Virus record (IMG/VR): IMGVR_UViG_3300026518_000038
Coordinates: 1 to 32,766 of that record
DNA: 32,766 nt
Strand: one strand, 5' to 3'
Source: a virus
The position numbers were made by a program, and so were the translations under genes. Below are positions 1,225 through 32,765 of this stretch, one piece after another. The notes beneath the pieces were generated by a model. That model was not told the DNA's origin and ran no database searches. It saw only the letters and a list, made by a program, of their open reading frames with translations. How positions within the stretch are numbered: the stretch's first letter is position 1; every line of letters starts with the position of its first letter.

Positions 1225-2425
1225 TGTTAATACTATCCATTACTTCTTGAATTGATACTGTATTTCTAGCTATTTCACCATATTTATCAGAATATGTTAT
1301 GGCTACAGCTTGTTTTATTCCTCTGTAACCGCTTCCCTGAGCCCAAGCATCGTTGGGGGTTAGGTTTCTAAAACTCTCCATACTTGCTATCGGATTATCG
1401 ATAAATTTTTCCTTATGCACGTGACCTGTGAGCCAGTATCTATAGTCCGTATCGCTGATATCTTCCTTTCTATCCCACACCATTACTTCTGGCAATCTCT
1501 GCAGTTTTGTCGCATGCCCATGGTGGAACCCTAGCAGTGTCTTTCCGAATTTATAGTACTTATGCATAGCTGCACTTTCATCAACACTAAATCTTGGTTC
1601 ATTTCTATAATACGCACTAAGCATTGCAACAAGATAGTGTCCTATTAAATCACTATGGTTTCCCGGGACTATCACATATCTTACTTCCTCATGTTTCTCA
1701 AGTGCCATATCTATCATCTTGATCTTTAAGTCCACAAGCATCTTGAATACTTTTGCATGTCTTGTGTCCACATCAAGTTCATGTCCGCTCTTGGTTCTAT
1801 TCGCATCATTGCTTGCATGAAGTGTATCTCCAAGATCCAATACAATTGCTGTCTTCGCCATTGGCGTAGTTTTATTCAATAACGTCGCAGCACCCAATGT
1901 ATTATTATATACACTTTCTGTATTTACATCTTTCCCTGTTTCCTCTTTCCATGCATATTCTCCAAGATGCATATCCGTAGTCACATACACAACAAGCATT
2001 CCATCTTCAGTATATTCAGGAATCTTCTTTGGTTCAGCTATCCCATCAACTTTCTTGGCAAGTTTCTTCGTTACATATTTTATAGCTTCAAGCTCATCCT
2101 GCTCACTTCTCTTTGTTTTGATCCATTGACCCTTCTCTTTCTTCTCTCCAGTCTCCTCATCAACACTATAGTATGTGCTGGTCCCTGTAGCTATCATACC
2201 TTCAGGAATATAGTCATCCACTTGCATCTTAAGTATCTTCTTCTTCAGCACCTTCACTCTTCGCTGGACCGTACGAGGATTTATCCCCATCTCAATTCCT
2301 GTCATCTTCACATGATAATTATTCTTCAATAATGCCTGAACCAAATCTCTCTGCTTATTTGTAAGCCATGGTTCATCTTTGATAGACTCTAAATCAAATT
2401 CACTTATCCTATTTCTTGTTGTCAT
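1217..2425 (-). CDS. Calcineurin-like metallophosphoesterase with N-terminal helix-turn-helix
   Basis: A two-metal phosphoesterase of 402 residues. The metal-site motifs appear in order: D151-x-H153 (TDMHLG), LGD200, GNH257 (PGNHSD), a histidine segment near 301-304 (HHGHA), and G334-H335-V-H337 (TGHVHK). Residues about 24-66 look like a helix-turn-helix (KMTGIEMGINPRTVQRRVK), so DNA or an RNA polymerase could be a partner. The substrate is unknown; phage members of this family include nucleases and phosphatases. The start is backed by TAAAGGATACAT immediately upstream, the same leader found before the rightward early genes. All motifs are present, so the gene seems functional. Its last about 59 residues, just after GHVH, are duplicated in the adjacent endonuclease. 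Confidence 0.85.
   Translation of the reverse strand: MTTRNRISEFDLESIKDEPWLTNKQRDLVQALLKNNYHVKMTGIEMGINPRTVQRRVKVLKKKILKMQVDDYIPEGMIATGTSTYYSVDEETGEKKEKGQWIKTKRSEQDELEAIKYVTKKLAKKVDGIAEPKKIPEYTEDGMLVVYVTTDMHLGEYAWKEETGKDVNTESVYNNTLGAATLLNKTTPMAKTAIVLDLGDTLHASNDANRTKSGHELDVDTRHAKVFKMLVDLKIKMIDMALEKHEEVRYVIVPGNHSDLIGHYLVAMLSAYYRNEPRFSVDESAAMHKYYKFGKTLLGFHHGHATKLQRLPEVMVWDRKEDISDTDYRYWLTGHVHKEKFIDNPIASMESFRNLTPNDAWAQGSGYRGIKQAVAITYSDKYGEIARNTVSIQEVMDSINNG
1239..1401 (-). repeat. Phosphoesterase 3' end (copy 1, in the intact gene)
   Basis: This partner of the copy at 139-299 encodes the C-terminal tail starting at IDNPI right after the GHVH metal motif. The two copies are direct repeats that flank the nuclease part of the endonuclease gene. 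Confidence 0.85.
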
Positions 2426-2481
2426 ATGTATCCTTTATATGCATATTCTGGAATTATACCATAGCTTCTTTGGTTCATGTA

Positions 2482-2499
2482 TCCTATACATTGAATATA
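2482..2499 (-). promoter_or_regulatory. Leftward promoter candidate
   Basis: Read leftward, this is TATATTCAATGTATAGGA, which resembles the rightward copy at 2738-2755 apart from a two-base deletion. It lies about 57 nt upstream of the phosphoesterase start. It is weaker evidence than the five rightward copies. Confidence 0.35.
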
Positions 2500-2737
2500 T
2501 AATTTTATTAGATATGGAATTAAGTTTTAATTAAGGTTTGCTCATGTGTAAAAACTATATAATTTTATGAGAGCTGAAAGAATATAACATTATCTAACAG
2601 AATCAAATTATTAATGAAATATATATATTTTTGTTAGAGAGGTATTATTACACGTTTCCGCAGAAAGCTTCTTGGGTACGCCCCCCCCTATAGCTTCAGA
2701 CCATCCATTATTTCCAGTGGCAACTTATCTGGTTCAG

Positions 2738-2755
2738 CTATTGAATCTGTATAGG
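2738..2755 (+). promoter_or_regulatory. Early promoter-like repeat, copy 1
   Basis: CTATTGAATCTGTATAGGA here differs at two positions from the copy at 3865. It precedes a leader of about 95 nt and a 38-residue gene. It belongs to a family of five copies found only in 2.7-5.9 kb. The TATTTA core resembles the short A+T-rich N4 middle promoters, but which polymerase reads it is unknown. Confidence 0.55.
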
Positions 2756-2802
2756 AATAAGCGTCGCATGTTGCGCTATATAAGAGTATGACATGACCTC
2801 GT

Positions 2803-2827
2803 GCTACAGGAGAGGGACCACTGTAGC
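2803..2827 (+). other. Leader hairpin
   Basis: GCTACAG and CTGTAGC form a perfect 7-bp stem around an 11-nt purine-rich loop in the 5' leader of the 38-residue gene. Similar GCTAC/GTAGC pairings occur in the element at 3621-3696 and in the leader at 4250-4290, which suggests a shared leader structure. Confidence 0.45.
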
Positions 2828-2849
2828 AATCTAATTTAAAGGATATATC

Positions 2850-6760: not shown

Positions 6761-6777
6761 ATTATAAGGAACCAAGC

Positions 6778-8601
6778 ATGAAAAGATTAGAATTATTCAA
6801 TGGAAAGTACACTATGCCACGCATTATAGATATGCAGTCTAAAGACGCTAGAGCATATAGAGAGCTTCAGAAAATGTATGACGCAATGTGGAATGCATAT
6901 CTAGTTAAAGGAACCAAAGGTACGATTAGTTTACCATATTGGGCACAGCGTATCAAGTCACCAAAGCTTATGAATATAGCATTGTCAATTCTATCAGAGA
7001 ATGGATATATTGAAGTATCTACTCAGCCTAATAGAAATTGGTCAGAAGCTAGATTAAGCGAGTCTAAGATTCTTAGTTATGTTACTGAAGAAGAACTTGC
7101 ATCTATTCGCAAACACTTCAAGTGGAACAAGTATGTTCTTAGCAATACTGAAGTAGATGAAAAAGACGCAAAACTTACTAAGATAAATGGCAACATCAAA
7201 GATACAGGCTTATACCGCAAAGGCTTCACTAAGGCATCTAAGACTCAGTTTCAGTTCGATATCCCAATGATGATTAGATTCTATGATGAAGTAGTTGAAT
7301 TAGTCAATTATGGAATCAATAAGACTCTAGAGAAGTATCCAGAGCTTCGTGATGATATGTCTAATTATGGAGAAATAGGCAAAGAAGTAGTTGATACTTA
7401 TATCAATATTGACGGTACATATAATTCAGGTTCTAGAAAATCAGATAGCAGAGGCAGAAATATTCAAGGCTATTTGAATAAGATAGGCAATCCAGTAGGA
7501 TATAAGATTATGCGTTCATTACTTGTAATTCCAGAAGAGAATAGACAAAATGCTACAGTTGAAGGTCTTAGAGCTAAGTATCTATTCGTTGCAGAACTTA
7601 ATGGATATAAAGAAGGTACTATCGAAGGCAAATTCGAGTTTGGGAAAGAATGTTTTCAGAATAAGACTTTTCCAGAAGTAGATGATATTAGTGAAGTACC
7701 AGAGTATATTTGGTTAATTAGACTCTATAAGGACATTCAAGGCTATATAGACGCATTTAAAGCAGGTATAGACTATAAATGGTCAGTACCTATAGAATTA
7801 GATATGTCTGCATCTATTTTAGGCTTCTACGGCATTCTGTTAGGTCATAAGCCATATATGAATAGATGTAATATGTTAGGCAACAAGCTTAGTGACGCAT
7901 GGGGACATAAGACTATCAAGAATAGAGTTCAGTTCAAGACTATTATGCGTCAGCTATATGGCTCTCAAGCATCTCCTCAAGCTATGTGGGACGATATGGG
8001 AATAGCATATACTCCTGAAGAAGCATTAGCATTCTCAGATGAACTTATCAATGGAGAAATGTCAGTTGCAAACAGCTTCAAGGACTTTATGATTAATAAT
8101 GCTCAGATGAAGCCTACTATGGAGCTTAATATCTATGGAGAGAAGTTCACTGTTGAGTGCAATAAGTTCTTCAATAGAGGCGAGAAGACTATCAGATATG
8201 ATTTATTTGACAGTAGAACCAATAGCATCAGACGTATTCACCATACAGACACTATTAAAGTTCCTAATCTCCAAGCATTTCGTAGATATGTAGCTACAGC
8301 ATTAATCCATCATCTAGATAGTAGAGTTATGGACACTACTTGTAATATAGTATATGATGAAGCAGAGTGGTGTCTAGACATCCACGATGCAATCATAGTT
8401 GATTGTGAGTATGCAAATTTAGCTAGAGAGACATATGCTAAAGAACTCGAGAAAATTCATTCTAATCGTAAAGATATACTTCAAGATTATTTCAGAAGTA
8501 TAAATATTCCTGCTTCTGCGATACCAGAATGGAAAGAAGTACAAGCAAAAGTAGAACCAATGGATAGTGAGTTTAAATGCTCTCCAATGGTATTGAAATA
8601 A
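6778..8601 (+). CDS. T7-type single-subunit DNA-directed RNA polymerase (N4 RNAP-like)
   Basis: This 607-residue protein carries the three palm/fingers motifs of single-subunit RNA polymerases. Motif A is D342-M-S-A-S followed by FYGILLG. Motif B is R383-VQF-K387 then Y394-G-S. Motif C is I535-H536-D537 followed by AIIVD. D342 and D537 would bind the catalytic metals, and K387 and Y394 the incoming nucleotide. T7 RNAP is 883 residues. N4 RNAPII is split into two subunits (about 269 and 404 residues), so one chain of 607 could correspond to both. Between K387 and Y394 there are six residues, one fewer than in T7. Family A DNA polymerase was considered, but motif A here is RNAP-like. It likely transcribes middle genes. 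AAGGAACCAAGC precedes the ATG, and two terminators follow. Confidence 0.85.
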   Translation: MKRLELFNGKYTMPRIIDMQSKDARAYRELQKMYDAMWNAYLVKGTKGTISLPYWAQRIKSPKLMNIALSILSENGYIEVSTQPNRNWSEARLSESKILSYVTEEELASIRKHFKWNKYVLSNTEVDEKDAKLTKINGNIKDTGLYRKGFTKASKTQFQFDIPMMIRFYDEVVELVNYGINKTLEKYPELRDDMSNYGEIGKEVVDTYINIDGTYNSGSRKSDSRGRNIQGYLNKIGNPVGYKIMRSLLVIPEENRQNATVEGLRAKYLFVAELNGYKEGTIEGKFEFGKECFQNKTFPEVDDISEVPEYIWLIRLYKDIQGYIDAFKAGIDYKWSVPIELDMSASILGFYGILLGHKPYMNRCNMLGNKLSDAWGHKTIKNRVQFKTIMRQLYGSQASPQAMWDDMGIAYTPEEALAFSDELINGEMSVANSFKDFMINNAQMKPTMELNIYGEKFTVECNKFFNRGEKTIRYDLFDSRTNSIRRIHHTDTIKVPNLQAFRRYVATALIHHLDSRVMDTTCNIVYDEAEWCLDIHDAIIVDCEYANLARETYAKELEKIHSNRKDILQDYFRSINIPASAIPEWKEVQAKVEPMDSEFKCSPMVLK

Positions 8602-13235: not shown

Positions 13236-13259
13236 TTAATTTAATATTAAGGAACCAAG

Positions 13260-20413: not shown

Positions 20414-20415
20414 CT

Positions 20416-20447
20416 CAAAGCACTTAATTGTGCTTTGATATTTTATT
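20416..20447 (+). terminator. Rho-independent terminator
   Basis: CAAAGCAC and GTGCTTTG form a perfect 8-bp stem around TTAATT, followed by ATATTTTATT, three bases after the VWA gene stop. Confidence 0.85.
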
Positions 20448-20460
20448 AATAAGGAAAATT

Positions 20461-21204
20461 ATGTCAAAAATCAAACAAGAACATTTACTTAATGAATTTC
20501 AATTTAAAGCTCAATATGCAAAAATTAATAGTCTAGAATATGTTAAAGATTTAGAAGAAGTAATTAGAGATTTAGTTCAAATAAATTACAAATCGAAATA
20601 CTATGAATTTAGATACATATATTCAATAGATGAATTAACGAAAGAAGAACAAAAAACTTTTGAATATATATACAGATTGCTAACATTAGCATTTAAAAAA
20701 TTTAAAGAAAAAACACAAAAAGAATTACCAGAAAAAATAACAGGAACTTATAAAAGATTACAAGAAAATGTATTATTTGTTTTATTTGAAGATAACACAG
20801 CATATTCATATGATGAAATTGTTAAAATAACAAAAAATTCTGATTATTTATATTTTAATGGAAGAAATGAATTGTTATTCAATTTTATAAAAATTTGTAA
20901 ATCACATTCATTTCATATTAATTATGATAAGAAGATGACAATTGAATATGAAATAGCAAGATCAGACATTGAAAACAAAGCAATGTTAATACTTTTAGAA
21001 TTTAAACATAAAGAATTAAATAATAGCAATAATTTTGCAATATGGAACGAATTATATAAATATTATTATCCAGAAAAACTTCAGCAAAAAACTCAACAAA
21101 ATATAGACAAATATAAATTGCGAATTAATTGCATAGAACAGCTAGATAAAGATATTAGAAATCACTTAGAAAAATATACAGGAGAAAATGGGCATGGGAT
21201 ATAG
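20461..21204 (+). CDS. Helical protein, 247 residues, unknown
   Basis: The ATG at 20461 has AAGGAAAATT upstream; a longer reading from 20428 runs over the terminator. It is almost entirely charged and helical (FKAQYAKINSLEYVKDLEEV, LTLAFKKFKEKTQKELPEK) with very A+T-rich codons and no GAACCA motif over about 750 bp. No family is recognised. Confidence 0.7.
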   Translation: MSKIKQEHLLNEFQFKAQYAKINSLEYVKDLEEVIRDLVQINYKSKYYEFRYIYSIDELTKEEQKTFEYIYRLLTLAFKKFKEKTQKELPEKITGTYKRLQENVLFVLFEDNTAYSYDEIVKITKNSDYLYFNGRNELLFNFIKICKSHSFHINYDKKMTIEYEIARSDIENKAMLILLEFKHKELNNSNNFAIWNELYKYYYPEKLQQKTQQNIDKYKLRINCIEQLDKDIRNHLEKYTGENGHGI

Positions 21205-21499
21205 AAGTGACGGAGCAATATATCTACCACAGAAGGCATATTTTTTATTGCCAGACGAATTAAAGCAAGACCTTAAAGATAATTGGCATAAAGATGAAGA
21301 CGTTGAAAATGTATGGAGATTCTGTGGCTTCAAATGGTACGACTCATTTAAAGAAATTCAAGCTTGGGAAGATTTTATGCACAAGCTAAATGAAGTAAAA
21401 GAGAAATATGATTTCATTAGAATAGGTGAAGATCTTGAAGACATGAATGTACGAACACATGAAATGTTTTATATAAACAGAACTATAGGATATAACTAA
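21194..21499 (+). CDS. MGYRSD-type small phage protein, 101 residues
   Basis: I choose the second ATG (21194), because ACAGGAG then lies at a normal distance and the protein begins MGYRSD, the opening of a family of small phage proteins I recognise by this start. The ATG at 21188 is the alternative. The body is aromatic and acidic (VWRFCGFKWYDSFKEIQAWE). The function of the family is unknown. Confidence 0.7.
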   Translation: MGYRSDGAIYLPQKAYFLLPDELKQDLKDNWHKDEDVENVWRFCGFKWYDSFKEIQAWEDFMHKLNEVKEKYDFIRIGEDLEDMNVRTHEMFYINRTIGYN

Positions 21500-21509
21500 A
21501 GGAACCAAT

Positions 21510-22460
21510 ATGACTAAACTAGATTACGGATACAACTCTCCACAATTTCAAGAGAATATCTTTGTAATATCCCCATCTGGAGTAAAGGACTTTGGAGGAG
21601 CATCTTCTCAGGAAGTCACATTGGATGACGCTGCAGCTAGACCTCATTTGTGGTTCAGACAGCAATTCATGAAAGAGGATAAATTTGAAGGCAATACAGT
21701 CTCAATTCGAGGTACAATGATCCATTGGCTTGCGCAGCAATATATTTCAAATGGCATACTTCAAGAAGATGATTATTTAGAAATGAATAATTATCTGCTT
21801 CAAGAAGAACATAGACTTCTAGAATTAGAAGACGTTGAACCAATAGATAGACAACGCATATTAGATACATATCCAGACATGTGGGATTCATTAGTAACAT
21901 GGATTGATTCATATAACCCAGACAGATCAGAATTTTATGTTACAAATCAACTATCAGAGCATGTAGCAATTAAAGGACAAGTTGATTATACTCGTATATT
22001 TCAAGAATGGGAACAAGACGATGAAAACCAATATCTTCCAGCAGTTGGTTCAACTATTGTAGGAGATTTCAAGACAATATCTGCAAAATCAATGAAGAAA
22101 AGTGCAGATTATGCACATATCTTACAAACATATGTTTATGCATATTGTCTTCAAGAATCTGGAGCCAATGTAGGTGGTATAGAAATTACTTATATAAAAG
22201 AACAATCAGGTGGTGAAATATCTGAAAAAACTGGAAAACATCTTAAGTTATATCCAGCAGAAACTAAATCTTTTGTAAAGCAATACACTGAAGAAACACA
22301 TCAGTTTGTTGGATCATATCTTAAAATGATTACAGAAACTATGGAATATTTTTTTAAACACCCTGATACTGCAAATATCTTATTTAAAGACCAAAGACTT
22401 AAAGAAATTAATTTCACGAAACAGGTTCAGAAATATAAATCAAAATCATTATTGGATTAA
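21510..22460 (+). CDS. PD-(D/E)XK nuclease, RecB/Cas4-like, 316 residues
   Basis: The active-site pattern is D159 (GQVDYTR), then G-D186-F-K188-T (VGDFKTIS), then a Q-x3-Y helix (ILQTYVYAY), the order seen in RecB-type nucleases. An early His (IHWLAQQY, near residue 71) may complete the site. It probably digests or trims DNA ends during replication or recombination. No C-terminal cysteine cluster is present, unlike the gene at 22981. AAAGGAACCAAT precedes the ATG. Confidence 0.8.
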   Translation: MTKLDYGYNSPQFQENIFVISPSGVKDFGGASSQEVTLDDAAARPHLWFRQQFMKEDKFEGNTVSIRGTMIHWLAQQYISNGILQEDDYLEMNNYLLQEEHRLLELEDVEPIDRQRILDTYPDMWDSLVTWIDSYNPDRSEFYVTNQLSEHVAIKGQVDYTRIFQEWEQDDENQYLPAVGSTIVGDFKTISAKSMKKSADYAHILQTYVYAYCLQESGANVGGIEITYIKEQSGGEISEKTGKHLKLYPAETKSFVKQYTEETHQFVGSYLKMITETMEYFFKHPDTANILFKDQRLKEINFTKQVQKYKSKSLLD

Positions 22461-22462
22461 AC

Positions 22463-22765
22463 ATGAAAGAATATATAGTTATTGCATATTATAAAGATAA
22501 GAAAGAAATTTATGGAATAATAAAATGGAATAAAGACAATAATGATAGTAAATTAATACATAAAAGAATAGAAAAAATAAATAATATTGTATATGACAAT
22601 ATAAACAATTTAACAGGATATAATTTATTTAATGCTATTGAACTTGTAAATTTTGAAAAACAAAAAGATATTAATGAAAATAGCATATCAGAAAATGATT
22701 GGACGTATGAAGTGATGGAACTTAATAATGAAACAAGACAATATCTTAGAGAAAACTGGAACTAA
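22463..22765 (+). CDS. Small protein, 100 residues, unknown
   Basis: It starts two bases after the stop of the nuclease gene. It is Asn/Lys-rich (NNDSKLIHKRIEKINNIVYD) with very A+T-rich codons. It resembles the next gene in size and in its aromatic opening (YIVIAYYKDKKE against YVMLCWEENKTH), but the likeness is weak. Confidence 0.65.
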   Translation: MKEYIVIAYYKDKKEIYGIIKWNKDNNDSKLIHKRIEKINNIVYDNINNLTGYNLFNAIELVNFEKQKDINENSISENDWTYEVMELNNETRQYLRENWN

Positions 22766-23030
22766 ATATGTAATGCTATGCTGGGAAGAAAATAAAACAC
22801 ATTTGCATTTATTTTTACAAGAAGATGAAAATGATTATCTTATATTTATAGCACCATCAATTAATTGCAAAATATATTCTGATAATTATTTTAATATATT
22901 AACATTAATAAATAAATCTAAAGAACAAGATAATGAATATCTTTTATATGAAATGTTTGAATACGAAATAAAGGAAGAAAATGAAGCACGAGAAATTATT
23001 GAAGACTATATTGAAAAAAACTACTTATAG
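22728..23030 (+). CDS. Small protein, up to 100 residues, unknown
   Basis: The first ATG (22728) overlaps the previous gene by 38 nt without a clear site. An ATG at 22773 is preceded by GGAACTAAATATGTA and would give 85 residues beginning MLCWEENK. The C-terminal end overlaps the next nuclease by 50 nt. No family is recognised. Confidence 0.6.
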   Translation: MKQDNILEKTGTKYVMLCWEENKTHLHLFLQEDENDYLIFIAPSINCKIYSDNYFNILTLINKSKEQDNEYLLYEMFEYEIKEENEAREIIEDYIEKNYL

Positions 23031-23718
23031 TGGTTCACTAAAACCAAAACAGAGACATATTTCAGCTTCATCGTTCAATCTTGAACCAATGCAGTTATAT
23101 CTTAGATATCAACATGGAGATATCAGCAAAGAAGACAATTTTAATGAATCAACTCTTGGTTCAATATTTCAGTTAGGAATAGATTCAATACTTAGCGAAA
23201 ATAATCAATTTAAGTATGCTATTAGACGCGAAATTACTCTAGGTAATAATTGGTCAGTATCAGGAGAAATTGATGCCTCAGACGAAGATAACAAGTATAT
23301 CTATGACTTCAAGCTGTTGAACCAACGAGGTTATGATAATTCAATCAAAAAGCAATCATATATTTCTAATATGTCAATCTATAAATATCTATTTCAGGAT
23401 TATAATGAGTTCTTTCTATTTGCAATAAATAAGCAAGGCAAATCAATCAAATCTCCAATATATTCAATTATTGATGTGACAGATAAATTATGGTCATGGC
23501 ACGATACTGAGCAAAAACTTTTAGATATTACAAACAATATTGAATATTGGATCAAAGATCCAGATTCAATTCCTGAATGTAATATATGGGAGTACGGAAA
23601 GGATAAACATAAACGTCCAGCAAAATGCAGCATGTACTGCTCATGGAATCAAGTATGTCCAACATTTCAATCACGAGATAAAGCATCAAATTATCACGTA
23701 TTAAAAAACTTATTATAA
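22981..23718 (+). CDS. PD-(D/E)XK nuclease with a Cas4-like C-terminal cysteine set
   Basis: Active-site residues are D98 (GEIDAS) and D109-F-K111 (IYDFKL), with a following Q-S-Y helix. The C-terminus has C200, then C216-x3-C220-x5-C226 (KCSMYCSWNQVCPTF), like the iron-sulfur cluster of Cas4/AddB nucleases, although in Cas4 one of the four cysteines is N-terminal. AAAGGAAGAAA precedes the ATG within the previous gene. No CRISPR array or other cas gene is in the window, so it is a recombination/replication nuclease rather than part of a CRISPR system. Confidence 0.8.
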   Translation: MKHEKLLKTILKKTTYSGSLKPKQRHISASSFNLEPMQLYLRYQHGDISKEDNFNESTLGSIFQLGIDSILSENNQFKYAIRREITLGNNWSVSGEIDASDEDNKYIYDFKLLNQRGYDNSIKKQSYISNMSIYKYLFQDYNEFFLFAINKQGKSIKSPIYSIIDVTDKLWSWHDTEQKLLDITNNIEYWIKDPDSIPECNIWEYGKDKHKRPAKCSMYCSWNQVCPTFQSRDKASNYHVLKNLL

Positions 23719-23727
23719 GGAAAACAA

Positions 23728-24681
23728 ATGTCAGTAAAAGTAGATATTAAAGATATTATTAAAGAATTAAATAATCTTACTGTGAAATATGTAAGACAAA
23801 TAACATCAGAAGATGCAAAATTTTATGACTTCAACGCACATGCCTATAGAGAACCATCACAACCAGGAAAATATGAAAATAACTATGCACTTCAAATAGC
23901 AATAGTAATGCTTAAAGATACAGAAGAGGGCAGATTAAAATCACATAATATTTATATTACATTTTTAGGATATATGAAAAATGCAAATCTATTATCGCAA
24001 AACGCAGGACTTTATTCATACAACACTGCAGATAGATTTGACTATTCATGTATTACTGGAGTCACAAAAGATATTACTAAAAAATCACTCAATATGCTAT
24101 CGAAAAAGTTTGTAGATAAATTATTTGAACATAATGGAATATCTAAAAGAAGTGTAAAATCTGGAGATAAAAATCTTTCAATTTCTGAATTAAATTCATT
24201 TACGCTTCAAATGTTCAAATCAACTTTTAAAGAAAATTCATTATCACTTCAAGACATCAGAAGAGTATTGAATGATACAGCACAAAAGCAACATAATTCG
24301 AAATATACTTTTGATATAGATTGGTCAAATGCATTGTTTTATGCAATAAAGCCAAGCACTCAAGGATATAGATATTTATATAAAAACACGAAAGATAAAT
24401 CTGCTAAAATTTATAATCATATAATTGTTGTTGGAGAAAAATTATTTGAAACTCCAGTAGATAATTATAATAGATATAATGAGACAGAAAGAATAGTATT
24501 TACTAAAAAAGTTGATACAACAAAAATATCTACAAATAATTTAGTTAAAGCATTAGTTCAAGCACCATTAAATAGCGAAATATCAAATCATATTTTGAAA
24601 GATTATAGATTAGAAAGCATAGATATGGATTCATATATTAATAAATTAACAGCAATAAATAAAGCAATAAAGGATTCATAA
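23728..24681 (+). CDS. Protein of 317 residues, unknown
   Basis: TAAGGAAAACAA precedes the ATG. The composition is soluble and basic, with a beta-rich middle (SKYTFDIDWSNALFYAIKPS). It overlaps the next gene by TAATG. Being between a nuclease and a DUF932-like gene, it is probably part of the replication block. No motif is recognised. Confidence 0.7.
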   Translation: MSVKVDIKDIIKELNNLTVKYVRQITSEDAKFYDFNAHAYREPSQPGKYENNYALQIAIVMLKDTEEGRLKSHNIYITFLGYMKNANLLSQNAGLYSYNTADRFDYSCITGVTKDITKKSLNMLSKKFVDKLFEHNGISKRSVKSGDKNLSISELNSFTLQMFKSTFKENSLSLQDIRRVLNDTAQKQHNSKYTFDIDWSNALFYAIKPSTQGYRYLYKNTKDKSAKIYNHIIVVGEKLFETPVDNYNRYNETERIVFTKKVDTTKISTNNLVKALVQAPLNSEISNHILKDYRLESIDMDSYINKLTAINKAIKDS

Positions 24682-25457
24682 TGGAACAAGGTTTCGGAAT
24701 AGGAAAGCAATTAGATTTAGATCTAATATCAACATCAGTGGGATACAACGTGTCAGAACGATACATTCCAGTGCAAACAAAGGAAGTAATTAAAATATTA
24801 GCAGATCAAGCTGGTTTCACTCCTGTAGGATTTGACGCAGTAAATGTACGAAAGCCAGAGAAGCAAGGTTTTCAGAAGCACATGGTAATGCTAGAGGAAC
24901 CAGATGCTGATATGATTGATGGAAAACTTCGCATTGTTTTATATAACTCATACGACAGGACTACTCCAATTAAAATATTCTTAGGCTATTATAGAGATGC
25001 ATGCTCAAATGATTGTGTGTGGGGAAATGACATAATGGAACCAATCTCAATTAAGCATACGAATAAAGATTGGAGACAAGCAATTGACACTACTGTAAAT
25101 AGATATAGATCAGCAAAGCAATCAGCAAGTAATAACATTAATAGAATGATGAATACATATATGTCATATGGAGATCAAGGAAGATTTTCAGAGTATGTAG
25201 CTTCACATATTTATACTGGTTCAGGGATTATTATAGATCCACTAGAATTTAATGTAGCACAGAGACAAGAAGATCTAGGGAAAGATTTGTGGCACACTTA
25301 TCAACGTGCTCAATCAAGCCTTCTTAATGGCGGAGTTAATAGAATTATCGAGCATGGAGATATTAAAAAAGTAAGCAAAACTCATAAAGTAACTTCAATT
25401 GATGAAAAAATTAAATTAAATCAACAACTAAATGAATTTGCATTAAATTTTAAGTAG
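24681..25457 (+). CDS. Possible DUF932-like phage protein, 258 residues
   Basis: The central segment (RIVLYNSYDRTTPIKIFLGY then RDACSNDCVWGN) resembles DUF932 proteins, which have an asparagine-serine/histidine strand followed by a Cys-Asn loop. These are common in phages and plasmids and have no known function. The resemblance is by eye. It is linked to its neighbour by TAATG. Confidence 0.55.
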   Translation: MEQGFGIGKQLDLDLISTSVGYNVSERYIPVQTKEVIKILADQAGFTPVGFDAVNVRKPEKQGFQKHMVMLEEPDADMIDGKLRIVLYNSYDRTTPIKIFLGYYRDACSNDCVWGNDIMEPISIKHTNKDWRQAIDTTVNRYRSAKQSASNNINRMMNTYMSYGDQGRFSEYVASHIYTGSGIIIDPLEFNVAQRQEDLGKDLWHTYQRAQSSLLNGGVNRIIEHGDIKKVSKTHKVTSIDEKIKLNQQLNEFALNFK

Positions 25458-25463
25458 TATATC

Positions 25464-25691
25464 ATGAAACAATTTGTTATAGAAGCATCTAGTTTTGGAT
25501 ATTCAGTAAAAAAATATTATTTAACAAAATATATAGGTGAAGAATTTACATTAGATATAAATCAAGCGTTTAAAGGCAATAGCTTTGAAATAATAAACAG
25601 ATTAAACACAGAAATAGAAGATGATAAATTTAATAATGTACCTGTATATAAATATAAAATAGTAAATATAAAGGATATAAATAATGAGTAA
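25464..25691 (+). CDS. Small protein, 75 residues, member 1 of a three-gene paralogue family
   Basis: It carries KKYYLTKYI, then INQAFKGNSFEIINRLNT, then YKYKIVNIK. The same layout occurs at 28088 (broken) and 28275 (DDAFKGNNFECITIFNKLN). The function is unknown. It overlaps the next gene by 8 nt (ATGAGTAA region). Confidence 0.7.
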   Translation: MKQFVIEASSFGYSVKKYYLTKYIGEEFTLDINQAFKGNSFEIINRLNTEIEDDKFNNVPVYKYKIVNIKDINNE

Positions 25692-25851
25692 ATATATATA
25701 TACACATTATGACAAATCAGGATGTTATATTGGCTCGACAAATAAAAATTTTCCAATATCAATAAATAATAGAAAATCGAAATACATTAGAAAAATACTA
25801 AATACATCTGAACCACTTATGTTTATTAGACCTAATGGAAAAGATTATTAA
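25684..25851 (+). CDS. Small protein, 55 residues
   Basis: AAAGGATATAAATA precedes the ATG. It opens MSKYIYTHYDKSGCYIGSTN and is basic. The stop overlaps the next ATG (TAATG). No family is recognised. Confidence 0.6.
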   Translation: MSKYIYTHYDKSGCYIGSTNKNFPISINNRKSKYIRKILNTSEPLMFIRPNGKDY

Positions 25852-25976
25852 TGAGATTCTATATATATCGAAATAATGAAAAGTTAGGAATAATCTATGC
25901 ACCAAATTATCAGACAGCACTCGAACGAGCAGTACGAGAATATGGAATGGACGTGGATGTAGAAGAAGCTAATTGA
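25851..25976 (+). CDS. Small protein, 41 residues
   Basis: It opens MRFYIYRNNEKLGIIYAPNY and ends in an acidic tail (MDVDVEEAN). The look (a strand-turn-strand, then YQTALERAVREYG helix) is that of a small folded phage protein. TAATG coupling supports it. Confidence 0.6.
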   Translation: MRFYIYRNNEKLGIIYAPNYQTALERAVREYGMDVDVEEAN

Positions 25977-25988
25977 AAGCTTTCTTCT
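25961..25988 (+). other. Hairpin at the end of the 25851 gene
   Basis: AGAAGAAGCT and AGCTTTCTTCT pair with one bulge. No T run follows. It may be a weak terminator before the helicase gene. The segment GAAAGCTTTC also recalls the AAGCTT element upstream of several early promoter copies. Confidence 0.35.
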
Positions 25989-26024
25989 GCTATACCTAAT
26001 TCCCATTTTAATTAAAGGAACCAA

Positions 26025-27848
26025 ATGACATTACGTCCATATCAAGAGACAGACCTTAAGTCTATAATCTCTATACTTGATGATCTCGAATCAGAATTAG
26101 CATTCGGAGAAGTAGATAATAATCTTATCATACTCTCGGCACCAGTATCATATGGAAAGTCAATTGTATTGGCTGAACTAGCTAGAACATTGGCATCTCA
26201 AGGAAAGAAAGTGATGCTTACTTTTAGTTATTCTGTATTGGTTCAGCAATTCATTAATTTATTTGAGCAGCTAGACATAGATTTTTCTGTAATAGCAGCA
26301 GGATTTGATAAATATTATGATGAATCAAAGCCTATTCAAATCGCAATGTATCAAACTCTTAATTCACGTATTGATAAGCTCGGAACCAAAACAGACATCC
26401 TTTTATCAGATGAAATTCAGACTTTCACAAATACACAAACTGTCGTAAATCTTGAGGAAAAATTAGGTTTCTATGCTCGTGTTGGAGTAACTGGAACACC
26501 ATATAATGCTCGTGGATTTAAGATACCATCATATAAGACTATTCAATCGGTCACTTCGAAAGACATGCTTGAACTTGGTTACACATCACATCTCCACGTA
26601 TATACAACTAAGTGGTCTGAAAATATTGACATCTCATCAGTATCAGTTAATCCAAATGGTGAATTTAGCAATGAAGATCTAGACAAAGTTATTGGACATG
26701 GAAAGTACATTGAAAACGCTTTGCAATCAATAGAAGAATTTAATATTAAAGATCAAAAAACTCTTTTATTCGCGCAGAATATAAATCAAGCAGAAGAATT
26801 CTATAATGAACTATCTAAAGAATATTCATGCGAATTAGTTCATAGTAAAATAAATAAGAAAAAGACTAAAGCAATTATTGAATGCTTTAGTAAACACATT
26901 CCATATGAAGATCCAACTCTAGACAAAACTTTATTTGATACTCCTCCTGAACCACGTTTAATCGAAGTATTAATATCTGTTGGTTCATTAGGAGTAGGAT
27001 TCTCTGTTGATGATATTGACAATGCTATTGTAACTCGTATGACAAATTCAATGATCGTACATGAGCAATTTTGGATCGGACGAATGAAGCGAAAGCATAT
27101 TGATATTCCACACAAGCGTGTTCTTGATCTAGGTCAAAATTTCTCACGACTTGGAGGACTAGATGATGATCCATTATTCGAACCAGTAAACGATACATTA
27201 GATTCAAAAACAAATCGTGAAAACATTTACAAAGCTATAAGCAAAATATCTAAGCCATTACTTGGCTCAATACTTCCAGATAATCTATCTCAAACAGAAC
27301 CATTTCAAATTACAAATAAGTGGTACAAAGATAGACTGCAAGAACTTCACGACATTGAAATGGCAATCTTCGAAGAAAAGGAACAACAGCGATTAGCTAA
27401 ATTAGCTGAAGAAAAAGCTAAGCGTGATAAACTAAATGAAGAACAGATTAGACAAGCAAAAGAGCTTGAACCATTCAGAAGAATGGTTCAAGTGATTAAG
27501 ACTACAGACAATTTAAAAACACTAGCTAAAGCATATCTATTTTGTCATATATTTGTTCATGGCTTGCCTGTATCAAAGACAGGTTTTACATATACTCCAA
27601 AACATGATTTCATTATGGATAAGTGGACAATAATGAACAAGTATCCAGAAAAACATCATGTATGGTTAAAGGCACTTAGAACAAGAGCAATCAATTTAAT
27701 AAAGAAACCAGATAGCAAGATATTTGCATTGGCTTTCTTCCCAGAATTTCTTGTTGAAAATTATGAGAGAGAGCTTGAATTGCAAAATAGCTATTCATCT
27801 ATATCGAACGATGATATAGATATATCAGATGATGAAATTCCATTTTAA
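26025..27848 (+). CDS. Superfamily 2 DNA/RNA helicase, 607 residues
   Basis: Motif I is APVSYG44-K45-S46, motif II D129-E130-I-Q132, motif III VTGTP, and motif VI Q348-FWIG-R353-MKR. Motifs IV-V lie in between (TLLFAQNINQAEEF; SVGSLGVGFS). This is the standard order for SF2 helicases that load at forks or remodel recombination intermediates. The C-terminal about 150 residues include a charged coiled coil (EEKEQQRLAKLAEEKAKRDK). N4-like phages carry a helicase in this region of the genome. AAAGGAACCAA precedes the ATG. Confidence 0.88.
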   Translation: MTLRPYQETDLKSIISILDDLESELAFGEVDNNLIILSAPVSYGKSIVLAELARTLASQGKKVMLTFSYSVLVQQFINLFEQLDIDFSVIAAGFDKYYDESKPIQIAMYQTLNSRIDKLGTKTDILLSDEIQTFTNTQTVVNLEEKLGFYARVGVTGTPYNARGFKIPSYKTIQSVTSKDMLELGYTSHLHVYTTKWSENIDISSVSVNPNGEFSNEDLDKVIGHGKYIENALQSIEEFNIKDQKTLLFAQNINQAEEFYNELSKEYSCELVHSKINKKKTKAIIECFSKHIPYEDPTLDKTLFDTPPEPRLIEVLISVGSLGVGFSVDDIDNAIVTRMTNSMIVHEQFWIGRMKRKHIDIPHKRVLDLGQNFSRLGGLDDDPLFEPVNDTLDSKTNRENIYKAISKISKPLLGSILPDNLSQTEPFQITNKWYKDRLQELHDIEMAIFEEKEQQRLAKLAEEKAKRDKLNEEQIRQAKELEPFRRMVQVIKTTDNLKTLAKAYLFCHIFVHGLPVSKTGFTYTPKHDFIMDKWTIMNKYPEKHHVWLKALRTRAINLIKKPDSKIFALAFFPEFLVENYERELELQNSYSSISNDDIDISDDEIPF

Positions 27849-27857
27849 GGAATACAT

Positions 27858-28088
27858 ATGGCAAGATTACAAATTGATATAAATCTTAAGCATAACATAG
27901 ATAAAAGACATGAAGTTAATGTTTCTCAAATAAATGATATTGGTTCAAACGAGCTACTTCAATCAAAAGATTTAAATAGAGAAGAACTTGGAAAACTTAT
28001 GAACAAGCTAATAGGCTACGATATTGATAATATTCGTAAAGCAACTAAATTGTTCCAAGGAACCAATATCTCAATACAGGAAAAATAA
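27858..28088 (+). CDS. Small protein, 76 residues, unknown
   Basis: AAGGAATACAT precedes the ATG. The protein is charged, with a helical C-terminal half (LGKLMNKLIGYDIDNIRKAT). Its TAA overlaps the ATG of the next, broken gene (TAATG). No family is recognised. Confidence 0.7.
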   Translation: MARLQIDINLKHNIDKRHEVNVSQINDIGSNELLQSKDLNREELGKLMNKLIGYDIDNIRKATKLFQGTNISIQEK

Positions 28089-28273
28089 TGTAAAAATATT
28101 ATTTAAAATCAAAATACACAGACAATACTTTTTTAAAAAAATCAAATCATAATTTCATAGAACCGACAGTAAAAATCGAAGATGCATTTTATGGAAATTA
28201 TTTTCAATATATAGAAAAATTAAATAGAATGCAAAAATATAATAGAGATATTTTTAAAATAGTAAAGATATGA
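28088..28273 (+). pseudogene. Small paralogue gene with TAA as its second codon
   Basis: The ATG at 28088 is coupled to the previous stop as TAATG but is followed at once by TAA. The same frame then runs 59 codons (KYYLKSKYTDN ... DAFYGNYFQYIEKLN ... FKIVKI) to TGA at 28271. This matches the intact paralogue at 25464 (KKYYLTKYI ... QAFKGNSFEIINRLN ... YKIVNIK). A single A-to-T change in an AAA codon would explain it. Confidence 0.7.
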
Positions 28274-28274
28274 A

Positions 28275-28454
28275 ATGCAATATATTATAAAAAATAAAAT
28301 ATTTAATATATATGTAAAAAGTAAAAAATCAACAACATTTTATATAGACGATGCTTTTAAAGGTAATAATTTTGAATGTATAACAATTTTTAATAAATTA
28401 AATAATTATTTTAAAAGACATTATGAAATAGTAGAATTAAAGGAAAAGCAATGA
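28275..28454 (+). CDS. Small protein, 59 residues, member 3 of the paralogue family
   Basis: It starts one base after the stop of the broken paralogue and contains IDDAFKGNNFECITIFNKLN, then HYEIVELKEK. It is similar to the genes at 25464 and 28088. Its stop overlaps the ATG of the large ATPase/primase gene (ATGA). Confidence 0.65.
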   Translation: MQYIIKNKIFNIYVKSKKSTTFYIDDAFKGNNFECITIFNKLNNYFKRHYEIVELKEKQ

Positions 28455-30589
28455 TAGTAGATAAAATTTTAGATGAATTAGAAAAGCAAGGAAATAAGAA
28501 AACTCCTAGACTTCTATATGCTCAATCATTGTTTTTCCATACATCGATTCTACTTAACTCGACTTCTGGACTAGTAAAGTCATGCAATGGCAAAGACATT
28601 AAGTTCTATGGTTTATCAATCGCATCATCAGGACTTGGAAAAGATTGGTCATTTAATATTACTGATAATCTATTCAATATCAATGAAAAGAATTATGCAA
28701 ATAAAATGAAGCAACAGCTTGAATTAAATCTTACATTTCAAGGATACGATCAAGAAGAATCTGAGAAAATTATGAAAGCTTGTCCTCGTGGAAAAATTCT
28801 TGGAATTGAAGGTACTGCAGAAGGAATCTTTGACGCAGCTAAAGCTCAGTCTATTTCAGGCTTTGGTTCAATCAATATGGTATCTACAGAAATTGGAGAT
28901 GCAGTTGTTGGTTCTGAAGGATTAATTAATAAACTCAAGGAAATATATGAAGGCAAAGTATTAGCAAAGACAACTCGTTCTAATAATACTGAATCAATTA
29001 CTGATGTTCAATCAAATGTATTATTATTTGGTTCAAATGATGGTTTCTCAAAAGACTCTAAAGCTATTCTAAGTAAAATTCTAAATTCAGGATTCTACAG
29101 ACGAAGCTTTATTGTAAATATAGAATCTGGAACCAAGATAGAACCACAGCGCCAGAATACAAATAACTTTCAAGAAATTAGAGAATATATCAAGCAAATT
29201 AAAGCTCAGTATATTGAAGACACAAAACATATGCAAGAGGATTATATATTCACATCTACTAGAGAATACAATAGACGATATGAAGAAATAAATCTTGAAC
29301 TAATCAAAGAAGCAAATGACAATCCAATTGACAAATTCAAATCATATGATAGTTCAGCTATTAATCTAATTGAATCACTTGCACATATAATTGCATTTCT
29401 AGATTCTACCAAAGAAGTAGATACTAGACATATTGATTATGCATATGAATATTTTAAAGAGACACGTCATACGCTTGATGAACTTCTGTATCCAAATAAA
29501 TTACATATTCAAATGTATCAAATTATTAAGCTCTCAGAAGAGCGATTATCTTATCATGATCTTGCTAAATATATTACAGATCTTCCAGATGCAAAGAGCA
29601 AGCGTGACGAACTAATTGAGCTTTTTGAGGAATATTCATTCTATAAAGGATTCGTCCCTGAAATTACTGGAAACAAAGTAAAGTATTTCCATATTCGTGA
29701 ACCAGAACAAACATCTCTTAATAAAGTCATAGCGTCTCTTGATATTACTGATTATGAAGCTAATCCAAGATTAGAACCAAAGCAAGCTATATCCTTCCAG
29801 GAAATGGATCTATCATTCTTTGACAATGGCAAAGATAATTTCTCGCTTGAGAAAGTAATTCAAAGCAAAAATGTTAAATCGTTTTGTTTATCTAGATTCG
29901 AAGAAAGTAATGAAGCTAGCAAACGAAGTAAGACTGGTATTGCAGGCCATAGAAGAGCAGACAGCTATATAGAAGGCTTTAATATTATTGGTATAGACAT
30001 TGATGAGGGTATGACAATAGAAGAGGCTCAAGAGCTTCTAAGCAATTATACATATATTATATACACAACTCGTTCTCATAGAAAAGAAAAGAATGGAGAA
30101 ATCCAAGGTGATAGATTCAGAATACTAATTCCAATCAAGCAAATGATATATGTTGATCCAGAACGATATAAAAAAATGTATGAGAACATAATGGACTTCC
30201 TGCAAATAAGAAACTATGACAAAGCTACAAGAAATGTATCAAGATTATGGTTCACTAATCCAGATGCAGAAATTTATAAAAATGAAGCAGAGTTATTAGA
30301 TGTTTCAGCATTGGTTCCAGACACTGCAAAAGCAGAGATAATGCTTCCAAACATAAACAGCATTGATGATGATTATGAAGCAGGACGTATTGACAATAGA
30401 GTTGCAGGATTCATTAAACATATTCTTCTTAACACAAGCAAAGGAAACAGAAATGATCAATTATTTAGAGCGAAAAAATTCTTCCAAGATCTAGGAATGA
30501 ATTATGAACATGAAGTCGTTAAATTAAATTCAATGCTAATGGAACCACTCTCAGAAAGAGAATTAAATAACATTATAAAAAGGAAATAA
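28451..30589 (+). CDS. ATPase/primase-like replication protein, 712 residues (N4 gp42-like)
   Basis: Two parts can be seen. The N-terminal about 400 residues resemble DUF3987-type helicase ATPases with an altered Walker A, S59-S-G-L-G63-K64-D65 (aspartate in place of Thr/Ser). The C-terminal part looks like an archaeo-eukaryotic primase (AEP) fold: D516-I-D518 (GIDIDEG) for the hhDhD motif, then R-S542-H543 (TTRSHRK) for sxH, and RLWFTNP near residue 600. A C-terminal helical stretch (LSERELNNIIKRK) resembles primase-C ends. It probably primes DNA synthesis and unwinds DNA. The layout matches phage N4 gp42, as far as I recall that family. Start is coupled by ATGA. Confidence 0.72.
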   Translation: MIVDKILDELEKQGNKKTPRLLYAQSLFFHTSILLNSTSGLVKSCNGKDIKFYGLSIASSGLGKDWSFNITDNLFNINEKNYANKMKQQLELNLTFQGYDQEESEKIMKACPRGKILGIEGTAEGIFDAAKAQSISGFGSINMVSTEIGDAVVGSEGLINKLKEIYEGKVLAKTTRSNNTESITDVQSNVLLFGSNDGFSKDSKAILSKILNSGFYRRSFIVNIESGTKIEPQRQNTNNFQEIREYIKQIKAQYIEDTKHMQEDYIFTSTREYNRRYEEINLELIKEANDNPIDKFKSYDSSAINLIESLAHIIAFLDSTKEVDTRHIDYAYEYFKETRHTLDELLYPNKLHIQMYQIIKLSEERLSYHDLAKYITDLPDAKSKRDELIELFEEYSFYKGFVPEITGNKVKYFHIREPEQTSLNKVIASLDITDYEANPRLEPKQAISFQEMDLSFFDNGKDNFSLEKVIQSKNVKSFCLSRFEESNEASKRSKTGIAGHRRADSYIEGFNIIGIDIDEGMTIEEAQELLSNYTYIIYTTRSHRKEKNGEIQGDRFRILIPIKQMIYVDPERYKKMYENIMDFLQIRNYDKATRNVSRLWFTNPDAEIYKNEAELLDVSALVPDTAKAEIMLPNINSIDDDYEAGRIDNRVAGFIKHILLNTSKGNRNDQLFRAKKFFQDLGMNYEHEVVKLNSMLMEPLSERELNNIIKRK

Positions 30590-30740: not shown

Positions 30741-30966
30741 AATAGAAAGAGCATTAAAATATCAAGAACAACAAGAAGGATTGACAGATGACTTAAAACT
30801 AGTAAAAGAAATATATGATGCAGTATTAAGAACATCAAGATCAGAAATAGCATTCAGTCAATTAACAAAATCTGTATTTATAGGAAAATATCCAAATTCA
30901 CGTAGGTATATATATCTATCAGATTTAGCAAAAGAAATATTAAAAATAAAGGAATCACATGAATAA
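30733..30966 (+). CDS. Small helical protein, 77 residues, unknown
   Basis: AAGGAGAAAA precedes the ATG at 30733. The end (LSDLAKEILKIKESHE) overlaps the RecA-like ATPase gene by 8 nt. It is soluble and helical. No family is recognised. Confidence 0.7.
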   Translation: MSKIERALKYQEQQEGLTDDLKLVKEIYDAVLRTSRSEIAFSQLTKSVFIGKYPNSRRYIYLSDLAKEILKIKESHE

Positions 30967-31687
30967 AAGATGTATACTCGTTATTGGCGAGTCAGGAACA
31001 GGAAAAACACTTAGTTTAAGAAATCTTCCATTAGAGAAGATTCTTTATATTAATTTCGATGGCAAGTCAGAAATGGGTTTAGGCATGGAAGAAAAGATGA
31101 AGGTTGTAACACCGGAATCACCAATGGATGTAATCAATTCATTAGAGGCTTTTGAAGCTAGTGAAAAATATGACTACATTGTAATTGATACTTTATCATT
31201 TATGGCCGATCAGTATGAAGCTATGTATATTCATGATTCAGAAGATTCAAGAAGTGAATGGGGAAATTATGCACATGAAATCACAACGCTATTGAATTTC
31301 GCAAGACTCAAATCAAAAAAAACTTGGATCTTTTTCAATCATCTACAACTGAATACAAGTAGTACAGGTACAGCTGCATATGTCAAAGGATCTCTAGCAA
31401 AGAAATCTCTTGAATCATTCTTTAGCACAGTATTACTTACAGATACATATGACCTTGCAAAGCCCAATCCATTTGGTTCAGTTGTTGGATATAGATTTCA
31501 AACTAAGCCTACTACACAGAATCGCAAAGTATCAGCTCGTTCTCCAATCGGAGTATTTCCTGAGTATATTAAGAATAATGATATAGATTTAGTATTTAGA
31601 GCTCTTGATGGAGAAAAGATAGACTGGGAAAACGATGATGTAATATTTGAAAAAGATAAAAAGCTTGCGAAAAAATTAGGTATCTAG
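30959..31687 (+). CDS. RecA-like NTPase (AAA_24/Sak4-type, N4 gp43-like), 242 residues
   Basis: Walker A is G10-ESGTG-K16-T17, and Walker B is Y73-IVID77. A strand WIFFNHLQ near residue 120 and a late TKPTTQNRKVSAR segment match single-domain RecA-like NTPases of phages, such as Sak4-type recombinases, that act on ssDNA-coated forks. It lies two genes before the putative ssDNA-binding protein, its natural partner, and the same pair occurs in N4-like phages. The leftward protein at 2985 is a distant P-loop relative. Confidence 0.8.
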   Translation: MNKRCILVIGESGTGKTLSLRNLPLEKILYINFDGKSEMGLGMEEKMKVVTPESPMDVINSLEAFEASEKYDYIVIDTLSFMADQYEAMYIHDSEDSRSEWGNYAHEITTLLNFARLKSKKTWIFFNHLQLNTSSTGTAAYVKGSLAKKSLESFFSTVLLTDTYDLAKPNPFGSVVGYRFQTKPTTQNRKVSARSPIGVFPEYIKNNDIDLVFRALDGEKIDWENDDVIFEKDKKLAKKLGI

Positions 31688-31688
31688 C

Positions 31689-31952
31689 ATGAACCAATCT
31701 ATTGATTTGTATTCTGGACAGAATAAATATATAGATAATATACTAAAACAATTAGTACCTTCTGATTATAAAATACAAGTTCAAAAGTATATAAATATAT
31801 TTGGAGATGGATATAAGGTTGCAATAACAAAAAATGATTTTAACAATAAAGCAATTAAAGTTTCAATTAAAAAATTCGATCACTCAAACGCACGAGAAAT
31901 AGTAAGTATTTTAATTGGAGCATACGAAAAAATGTATGAAACACAAGAATAG
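31689..31952 (+). CDS. Small protein, 87 residues, unknown
   Basis: It starts one base after the NTPase stop. It is basic and contains GYKVAITKNDFNNKAIKVS, suggesting a small alpha/beta fold. No family is recognised. The 126 bases after it hold no gene and no clear terminator. Confidence 0.65.
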   Translation: MNQSIDLYSGQNKYIDNILKQLVPSDYKIQVQKYINIFGDGYKVAITKNDFNNKAIKVSIKKFDHSNAREIVSILIGAYEKMYETQE

Positions 31953-32078
31953 TTTATGGCATTTGGTTTTATGCAAATTTTCCAATGTAAGCCCATGAGA
32001 CTCTTTGTACAAATAGTTGATAGAAATATCTAATAGAACCAATAAGGTTATAAACAAATATATTAAAGGAAATTACAC

Positions 32079-32741
32079 ATGAGTAATACAGTATTAGACG
32101 CATTAGGCGTATCACAAGAAGCTTTCAAAGAAGCAAAGGCAGCACCAAGTACAGGTTCATTTTTATGGGACTCTGGAGCATATAAGGTAGATATCGTAGA
32201 AGCAGCAATCTTTCAGACAGATTCTGCAGCAACAATGTTTAAATTAACACTTAAAGACCCTGAAGCAGATAAGACTTTGACTGAGTATGCAAATACTTCA
32301 TACACTGCAAAATCTGATGATAAAGATGGTAAATACAAGAAAGGAGATAAAGTAGAGAACAAATCTGGAGCAAAACTTTTCAAATCTTTACTTTCAGCAT
32401 TACACCTTGAGCCAACAGCTTTAAGCATTTCTGATGAAAAAACTGAAGCATATGGAAAAGAAGTTGATGCAAAGATTATCGACTTAGCTGGACGTGGAGT
32501 AATTGCACTGGTTCGCCAAGTAGATGACTCTGCAAATAATGAAAAATACGGTGAATCAAATGTCATTGAAGGTTTCGCAGACATCGAAGGAAATATTGAT
32601 GACTCTCAGGAGCCTCTAAAAAAATGGTTAGCTAAAATTGAGAAAGCACCAATACTTGTCAAAAAAGCTAAAAAATCTTCAGGCGTGAAAGAAACTTCGG
32701 AAGAGACTAAGAAAGCAGCTGCTGCTATTCTTGATATTTAA
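32079..32741 (+). CDS. Putative ssDNA-binding protein, 220 residues
   Basis: AAAGGAAATTACAC precedes the ATG. The first about 150 residues read as a beta-rich fold (GSFLWDSGAYKVDIVEAAIF, TMFKLTLKDPE, GVIALVRQV) like OB-fold phage ssDNA-binding proteins. The tail is charged and Lys/Ala/Glu-rich (KKAKKSSGVKETSEETKK), as in many SSBs. The location after the RecA-like NTPase and the own terminator fit a highly expressed SSB. N4 encodes its SSB (gp45) in a similar place. The identity is by layout, not by a diagnostic motif. Confidence 0.5.
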   Translation: MSNTVLDALGVSQEAFKEAKAAPSTGSFLWDSGAYKVDIVEAAIFQTDSAATMFKLTLKDPEADKTLTEYANTSYTAKSDDKDGKYKKGDKVENKSGAKLFKSLLSALHLEPTALSISDEKTEAYGKEVDAKIIDLAGRGVIALVRQVDDSANNEKYGESNVIEGFADIEGNIDDSQEPLKKWLAKIEKAPILVKKAKKSSGVKETSEETKKAAAAILDI

Positions 32742-32765
32742 TTCAGAACCAATTGGTTCTGAATT
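32740..32765. terminator. Perfect 26-bp palindrome built from two GAACCA motifs, terminator
   Basis: AATTCAGAACCAATTGGTTCTGAATT (shown here as AATTCAGAACC / GGTTCTGAATT arms around AATT) is fully self-complementary and begins in the stop codon of the putative SSB gene; the following T tract runs off the window edge. Its arms are an inverted pair of the dispersed GAACCA motif. Confidence 0.8.

Follow-up and report, generated by a model that had tools for sequence, protein, structure and literature searches.

A strand-biased GAACCA/TGGTTC hexamer dense in N4-like phage genomes, a probable initiation site of the gp43-type primase

The template sites of DNA primases are among the known systems that resemble the element considered here, the hexamer GAACCA with its complement TGGTTC, which recurs along a viral DNA fragment of 32,766 bases (the complete IMG/VR record IMGVR_UViG_3300026518_000038, analysed over its full length and referred to below as the window). 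The gp4 primase of phage T7 uses 5'-(G/T)2GTC-3', and its sites, like those of the window, are short, asymmetric and present on the template at high density; TGGTC of T7 and TGGTTC lie one T apart. T7 relies on a DnaG-type primase that carries a zinc-binding domain (PMC12839067), whereas the model of the primase of N4-type phages, of which the window is a divergent relative, has an archaeo-eukaryotic primase (AEP) domain, the site is a hexamer and its excess is far larger. The PrimPol of NrS-1, an AEP enzyme, needs the template 5'-TTTGGTTA-3' and initiates on the first base upstream of it, also accepting GTG (PMC8718748). It resembles the N4-type protein in combining an AEP with a helicase domain and a helix bundle, and its site shares TTGGTT with the TTGGTTC of the window, but its primase part comes first and its helicase is a different one. 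We know of no genome-wide enrichment of the NrS-1 site. RepB' of RSF1010, likewise built from an AEP catalytic domain and a helix bundle, recognises single-stranded DNA in a sequence-specific manner, reading one long hairpin site per strand (ssiA and ssiB) in a leading-strand mode (PMC4434180), whereas N4-like phages carry hundreds of hexamers.

Two further classes of genomic signal invite comparison. Chi sites are also short, dense, asymmetric and biased in orientation, but they are read by the RecBCD or AddAB complex of the host and differ between hosts, whereas GAACCA is common to phages of unrelated hosts. DNA uptake sequences of Neisseria and Haemophilus are, like GAACCA, short words over-represented genome-wide on both strands; unlike them, GAACCA is a motif of phages, is not found enriched in a sample of Escherichia coli DNA, and its one-mismatch forms are not enriched. 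An earlier note on the window had named uptake, Chi-like, primase start and modification sites as candidates, holding that nothing decided among them; the primase start site is retained here, being largely favoured by the comparative evidence, and the indecision is given up.

The window contains 101 exact copies of the hexamer at positions 1595-32759, 60 on the + strand and 41 on the - strand (about 3.1 per kb; coding and non-coding DNA both carry them), with a mean gap of 312 bp, in agreement with the earlier estimate of about 100 copies in some 31 kb at a mean distance of about 320 bp. The ten-fold excess over composition reported at the same time was reproduced, the mononucleotide expectation being 10.2 copies and dinucleotide shuffles yielding 8.7 (standard deviation 3.1, maximum 17). 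When synonymous codons were shuffled with every protein and the codon usage preserved, 29.6 copies were obtained (standard deviation 3.6, maximum 41 in 200 shuffles; about 28-30 overall), corresponding to a 3.4-fold excess in the window; no shuffle gave the roughly 100 copies against which the earlier note had set its claim. The codon null errs on the cautious side, since the motif is already built into the codon usage that it preserves: of the 24 ACC codons in the window, 15 lie within GAACCA. Under every null GAACCA ranked first among all hexamers, which answers the question of rank raised in the note. The non-coding portion (about 4.9 kb) holds 20 copies and the coding portion (about 27.9 kb) 81; since the non-coding density is at least equal to the coding one, the excess is not a codon effect, and a codon artefact was also rejected on the distance between 101 copies and the shuffle maximum of 41.

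The hexamer is sharply bounded. None of its one-substitution neighbours is comparably enriched, any single base change removing the excess, and the last A, described earlier as almost fixed, is replaced only rarely in the window (GAACCC 1, GAACCG 2, GAACCT 7). The base 3' of GAACCA is A in 62 of 99 copies and the base 5' of it is C in only 4 of 99, so that beyond the hexamer only a single base on either side is informative, with C avoided before and A favoured after. Spacing is near random, with a coefficient of variation of the gaps of 1.05 in the window and 0.89-1.05 over the genomes examined, and regular spacing was rejected on these values.

The motif is not peculiar to the phage of the window. 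Comparing observed with codon-shuffle copies per genome, GAACCA is the top hexamer in coliphage N4 (220 vs 67), Vibrio phage D445 (249 vs 65), Sinorhizobium phage ort11 (141 vs 53), PhAPEC7 (143 vs 49) and JZBo1 (113 vs 47), as it is in the window (101 vs 28), and it comes second, behind the overlapping AACCAA, in JA-1, BUCT194, DSS3phi2 and RD-1410; the conservation in related phages that the earlier note had proposed to look for is therefore present. The window carries 3.08 copies per kb, N4 3.14 and D445 3.45, a nearly equal density although their GC contents differ (31, 41 and 45%, respectively). Variants occur as GARCCAA in Ebordelon, a Pseudomonas putida phage, AARCCA in DEV (212 vs 60), AAACCA in XC38, and AACCAA in the roseophages and JA-1. 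Neither the CCA core nor the A at position 2 varies, position 7 can be A or G, and position 1 is G only in N4, D445 and the window, G or A in the roseophages and JA-1, and A only in DEV and the genomes L047 and L048; the A-only phages fall mostly within one primase clade. The motif is a family trait of phages with the N4 gp43-type primase, extending over hosts of unrelated biology.

Enrichment of GAACCA was absent from T7 (31 vs 24), from 50 kb of E. coli K-12 (17 vs 24) and from Pseudoalteromonas phage Y3 (25 vs 23), while the primase site of T7 itself, TGGTC, served as a positive control and ranked 6th of 512 pentamers in that phage (141 vs 93). The capsid protein of phage Y3 is of the N4 type, and an N4-like DNA polymerase and virion RNA polymerase have been reported by its authors as well (PMC11654794), but its record lists O and P replication proteins of the lambda type, and no gp43 match was found. 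In Alteromonas phage AD45 (AD45-P1), GAACCA is not enriched and is slightly depleted. The motif thus tends to go with the gp43-type primase and not with the N4-type capsid protein or the AD45-like RNA polymerase. No published description of GAACCA in N4-like phages was found in the literature searched, which covered little subscription or older N4 work, in accordance with the earlier remark that no such motif was known for this phage group; N4 is a long-studied model phage, and its most over-represented hexamer appears undescribed in that literature.

The strand on which the motif stands was examined in relation to the early and late arms of N4-like genomes, which are transcribed in opposite directions. 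Pooled over eight genomes, the ratio of GAACCA to TGGTTC on the early-sense strand is 362:259 in the early arm and 318:195 in the late arm. Across 467 common hexamers, strand preference anticorrelates between the arms (r = -0.81), as expected if the preference of a hexamer follows the genes, and only 11 of the 467 favour one and the same strand, to 57% or more, in the early and the late arm alike, six of them belonging to the GAACCA motif family. Single genomes show a preference of 51-64% for the same strand. Individual sites are conserved more often than words of the same composition: 36 vs 20% between N4 and PhAPEC7, 50 vs 18% between the genome L073 and D445, 77 vs 58% between DSS3phi2 and EE36phi1, and 36 vs 23% and 29 vs 20% in other phage pairs; in one further pair the difference (33 vs 26%) was not significant. 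Most motif sites turn over at 70-73% DNA identity while the density holds, which suggests that selection acts on motif density rather than on particular places. On the template, a pyrimidine stands immediately 5' of TGGTTC in 59-82% of copies, more often than in shuffles for each of the ten phages examined, which fits a purine primer start at that position, although this is suggestive only.

Candidates for the reader of the motif were the phage proteins common to the window, a fragment, and the motif-bearing phages, namely the primase, Sak4 and the gp24-type ATPase, and weakly a single-stranded DNA-binding protein (SSB) and a nuclease. The RNA polymerase is disfavoured because that of the window is AD45-like and AD45 lacks the motif. 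Among the remaining candidates, only the primase comes from a class known for reading short sequences.

In the window, this N4 gp43-type DNA primase-helicase (712 aa) is encoded at 28451..30589 on the + strand, as are the domains described next, and matches the PHROG family phrog_2135 (DNA primase) with an E-value of 1e-61 over residues 7-709; identity to Schitoviridae primases is 23-26% over the full length (26% to that of DSS3phi2). Residues 1-348 (28451..29494) are modelled as an MCM-like AAA+ helicase fold with a mean pLDDT of 75, and MCM chains fill the VIA-align list for this N-terminal model (Z 16-18 over 240-270 residues). Pfam DUF3987 matches 19 of 50 gp43-type primase homologues. The AEP domain, at about residues 450-625 (29798..30325), lies in a C-terminal model of pLDDT 86 and pTM 0.80, and its best match is the S-2L PrimPol 6zp9 (Foldseek E 7.8e-6; VIA Z 7.2; root-mean-square deviation 4.7 over 144 residues), with RepB', PriS and Prim-PolC also near the top and most other top rows being AEPs. 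The AEP catalytic motifs are present, D516-x-D518 being invariant and T540 and H543 (TTxxH) near-invariant in 50 homologues. Residues 626-712 (30326..30586) form a bundle of five helices in the model, at the position of PriCT-1; Pfam PriCT_1 matches 44 of the 50 aligned homologues, while the sequence of the window primase itself gives no match to it. A sequence search of solved structures with the primase profile returned nothing credible. On the predicted structures, the protein would be an MCM-like helicase joined to an AEP domain plus a helix bundle.

GAACCA/TGGTTC is very probably a selected signal linked to replication in some way, and we consider it probable that the gp43-type primase encoded by the phage uses it as its primer-initiation site. 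In such a scheme, the primase would read 5'-(Y)TGGTTC-3' on the template strand exposed at the fork and start a primer at TGGTTC or just 5' of it, and the phage polymerase would extend this primer as an Okazaki fragment. The genome would be selected for sites about every 300 bp over both strands, allowing a primer to be started anywhere, and the 60:40 bias would lie towards the strand that is more often the lagging template. We infer gp43 as the reader, TGGTTC as the template-strand form and the role in Okazaki fragments from these comparisons, and the direction of the fork is a prediction from the motif strand.

Several observations weigh against assigning the motif to the primase. The N4-type replication proteins are all inherited together, and a Mantel test of the first motif base against the trees of eight proteins or domains found signal in nearly all of them and no discrimination, the trait following the trees of the DNA polymerase, exonuclease, Sak4, SSB and primase about equally. 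PJN101, SBP1 and several IMG/VR loci show a weak excess or none, and little or no enrichment accompanies a clear gp43 primase in PJN101 and the contigs L063, L067 and L069, while AD45 has a distant gp43 homologue yet is enriched for another word, AACTAG. At 60:40, the strand bias is a modest one. The primase site of T7 is enriched only 1.5-fold in its own genome, which makes a 3-4 fold excess over the codon null unusually strong, and the resemblance to the NrS-1 site spans five to six bases and may be due to chance. Finally, the case for the primase is built on genomes and models.

Alternatively, the N4-like phages as a whole would carry a strand signal selected genome-wide, RARCCAR/YTGGYTY, that has shifted base by base within the family together with its reader, a replication or recombination factor other than the primase which has escaped recognition. 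The hexamer would then be a novel type of signal in phage genomes; we hold this unlikely, though worth keeping in view. Rather unlikely, and a shade more so, is a Chi-like or annealing site read by Sak4 (gp44), a gp42-type nuclease or the SSB, which would guide recombination-dependent replication or protect DNA ends. Sak4 does accompany the primase, both in the window and in those motif-bearing Schitoviridae that were examined, Chi-type signals are similarly short, asymmetric, dense and strand-biased, and the conservation of sites fits such a role equally well. On the other hand, we know of no sequence specificity in Sak4 or other RecA-like annealing proteins, a Chi function should bring a stronger preference for one orientation than 60:40, and the motif recurs in phages whose hosts are enterobacteria, Vibrio, Sinorhizobium and roseobacters, which argues against a host Chi in particular; the host Chi was excluded, N4 having six E. 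coli Chi sites in 70 kb.

Very unlikely is a site connected with modification or restriction, at which GAACCA would be methylated by phage or host and the phage would gain from carrying copies. A non-palindromic hexamer is indeed what a Type III or Type IIG methylation site usually looks like, but restriction selects against sites and not for them, as the avoidance of GATC in N4 illustrates (1 vs 258 expected), phages whose hosts are unrelated carry one and the same motif, the window proteins that were scanned revealed no methyltransferase domain, and modification leaves the fixation of strand unexplained. A transcript-level or promoter signal, acting for instance with the middle RNA polymerase or at translation starts, is highly unlikely, even though five copies fall within ribosome-binding regions. 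Copies stand on both strands and mostly inside genes, and the motif keeps its DNA strand where the genes reverse, so that a transcript-level role is improbable; the RNA polymerase of the window resembles that of AD45, a phage without the motif, and N4 vRNAP uses hairpin promoters. The middle promoters of N4 are AT-rich (PMC4496689), which also counts against a promoter. A side effect of preferred codons or dipeptides or of mutation bias can be given almost no weight since, although codon shuffles alone yield three times the composition value, they stay far below the observed count, intergenic density is at least equal, one-base neighbours are not enriched and sites are conserved above matched words.

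Should the hexamer be the site of the gp43-type primase, the initiation sequence of the primase of a whole family would be readable from genomes alone, together with its shifts among G, G/A and A at the first base, and the matched pairs of enzyme and site would serve the study of template recognition by AEP primases. It would also allow the direction of the fork and the lagging strand of N4-like phages to be inferred, could serve as a genomic signature when fragments like the window are to be assigned, and would indicate that a primase can impose strong genome-wide selection on codon choice.

Individual copies coincide with ribosome-binding regions on the + strand, as the earlier note had read them. 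In each of four cases the sequence AAGGAACCA precedes the gene: GAACCA lies at 6769..6774 before the fused RNA polymerase gene 6778, at 13252..13257 before the open reading frame 13260, at 21502..21507 before the PD-(D/E)XK nuclease gene 21510 (PF12705 match) and at 26018..26023 before the helicase gene 26025 (ResIII and Helicase_C matches). A fifth overlap was found where AGGAGAACCA abuts 5227. The codon example once drawn from the polymerase gene was misplaced, as GGA ACC and GGT ACG are not at its codon pairs 28 and 31 but at codons 45-46 and 48-49 of the gene starting at 6778.

By its proteins, the window is a divergent relative of the N4-like phages (Schitoviridae) and not a clear member. 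Megablast of the window against 50,697 phage records gave no match, IMG/VR single-protein scans with its helicase and RNA polymerase found no relatives, and the primase profile retrieved 80 IMG/VR loci, none of them above 28% identity; among the protein matches seen, the highest identity is about 36%. Its genes include a fused T7-like RNA polymerase, ThyX, an AAA+ ATPase like N4 gp24, a PD-(D/E)XK nuclease, a DUF932 protein, a ResIII helicase, the gp43-type primase, Sak4 and a probable SSB, and they form a mosaic in which the RNA polymerase and the PD-(D/E)XK nuclease are nearest to AD45, whereas the primase and Sak4 are nearest to Schitoviridae. The middle RNA polymerase (607 aa; 6778..8601, + strand) has 36% identity over 269 aa to that of AD45 and gave no BLAST match to the N4-type RNAPII of the compared phages; it is a single fused protein, unlike the middle RNA polymerase expected of Schitoviridae, which in N4 has two subunits (gp15 and gp16). 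No giant virion RNA polymerase gene (about 3500 aa) is present in this 32.8-kb fragment. N4-like phages usually carry a family A DNA polymerase beside the helicase-primase block; the window, a fragment, gave no profile match to one, and none was recognised near that block at 19007-28451. The helicase at 26025 is of the ResIII type and not of the Dda or RecD type. Downstream of the primase on the + strand follow a Sak4-like RecA-family annealing protein resembling N4 gp44 (30959..31687; AAA_24 match, 33% identity to Sak4 of DSS3phi2) and a probable N4 gp45-type SSB (32079..32741), proposed from a weak profile match (E 7e-4) and its position after the primase and Sak4.

Other words stand out in some of the genomes compared. 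In AD45-P1, words containing CTAG are raised (AACTAG 188 vs 67, ACCTAG 136 vs 53, CACTAG 115 vs 48); AACTAG and ACCTAG are possibly the counterpart motif of that phage or possibly a CTAG effect, and neither is claimed. The low-GC contigs L063, L067 and L068, which carry a gp43 primase, show no RARCCA signal and have palindromes such as TACGTA, TGCGCA and ACGCGT at the top instead. Coliphage N4 has almost no GATC (one site where about 258 are expected); D445 shows no depletion of it (294 vs 276) and the window a mild reduction (64 vs 91), and GATCCA is also missing in BUCT194 and SBP1. At the left end of the window, a T5orf172/DUF723 gene (121-1224) adjoins the gene of a 402 aa protein on the - strand (1217-2425), which shares 28% identity with a metallophosphatase-like protein of Vibrio phage SBP1.

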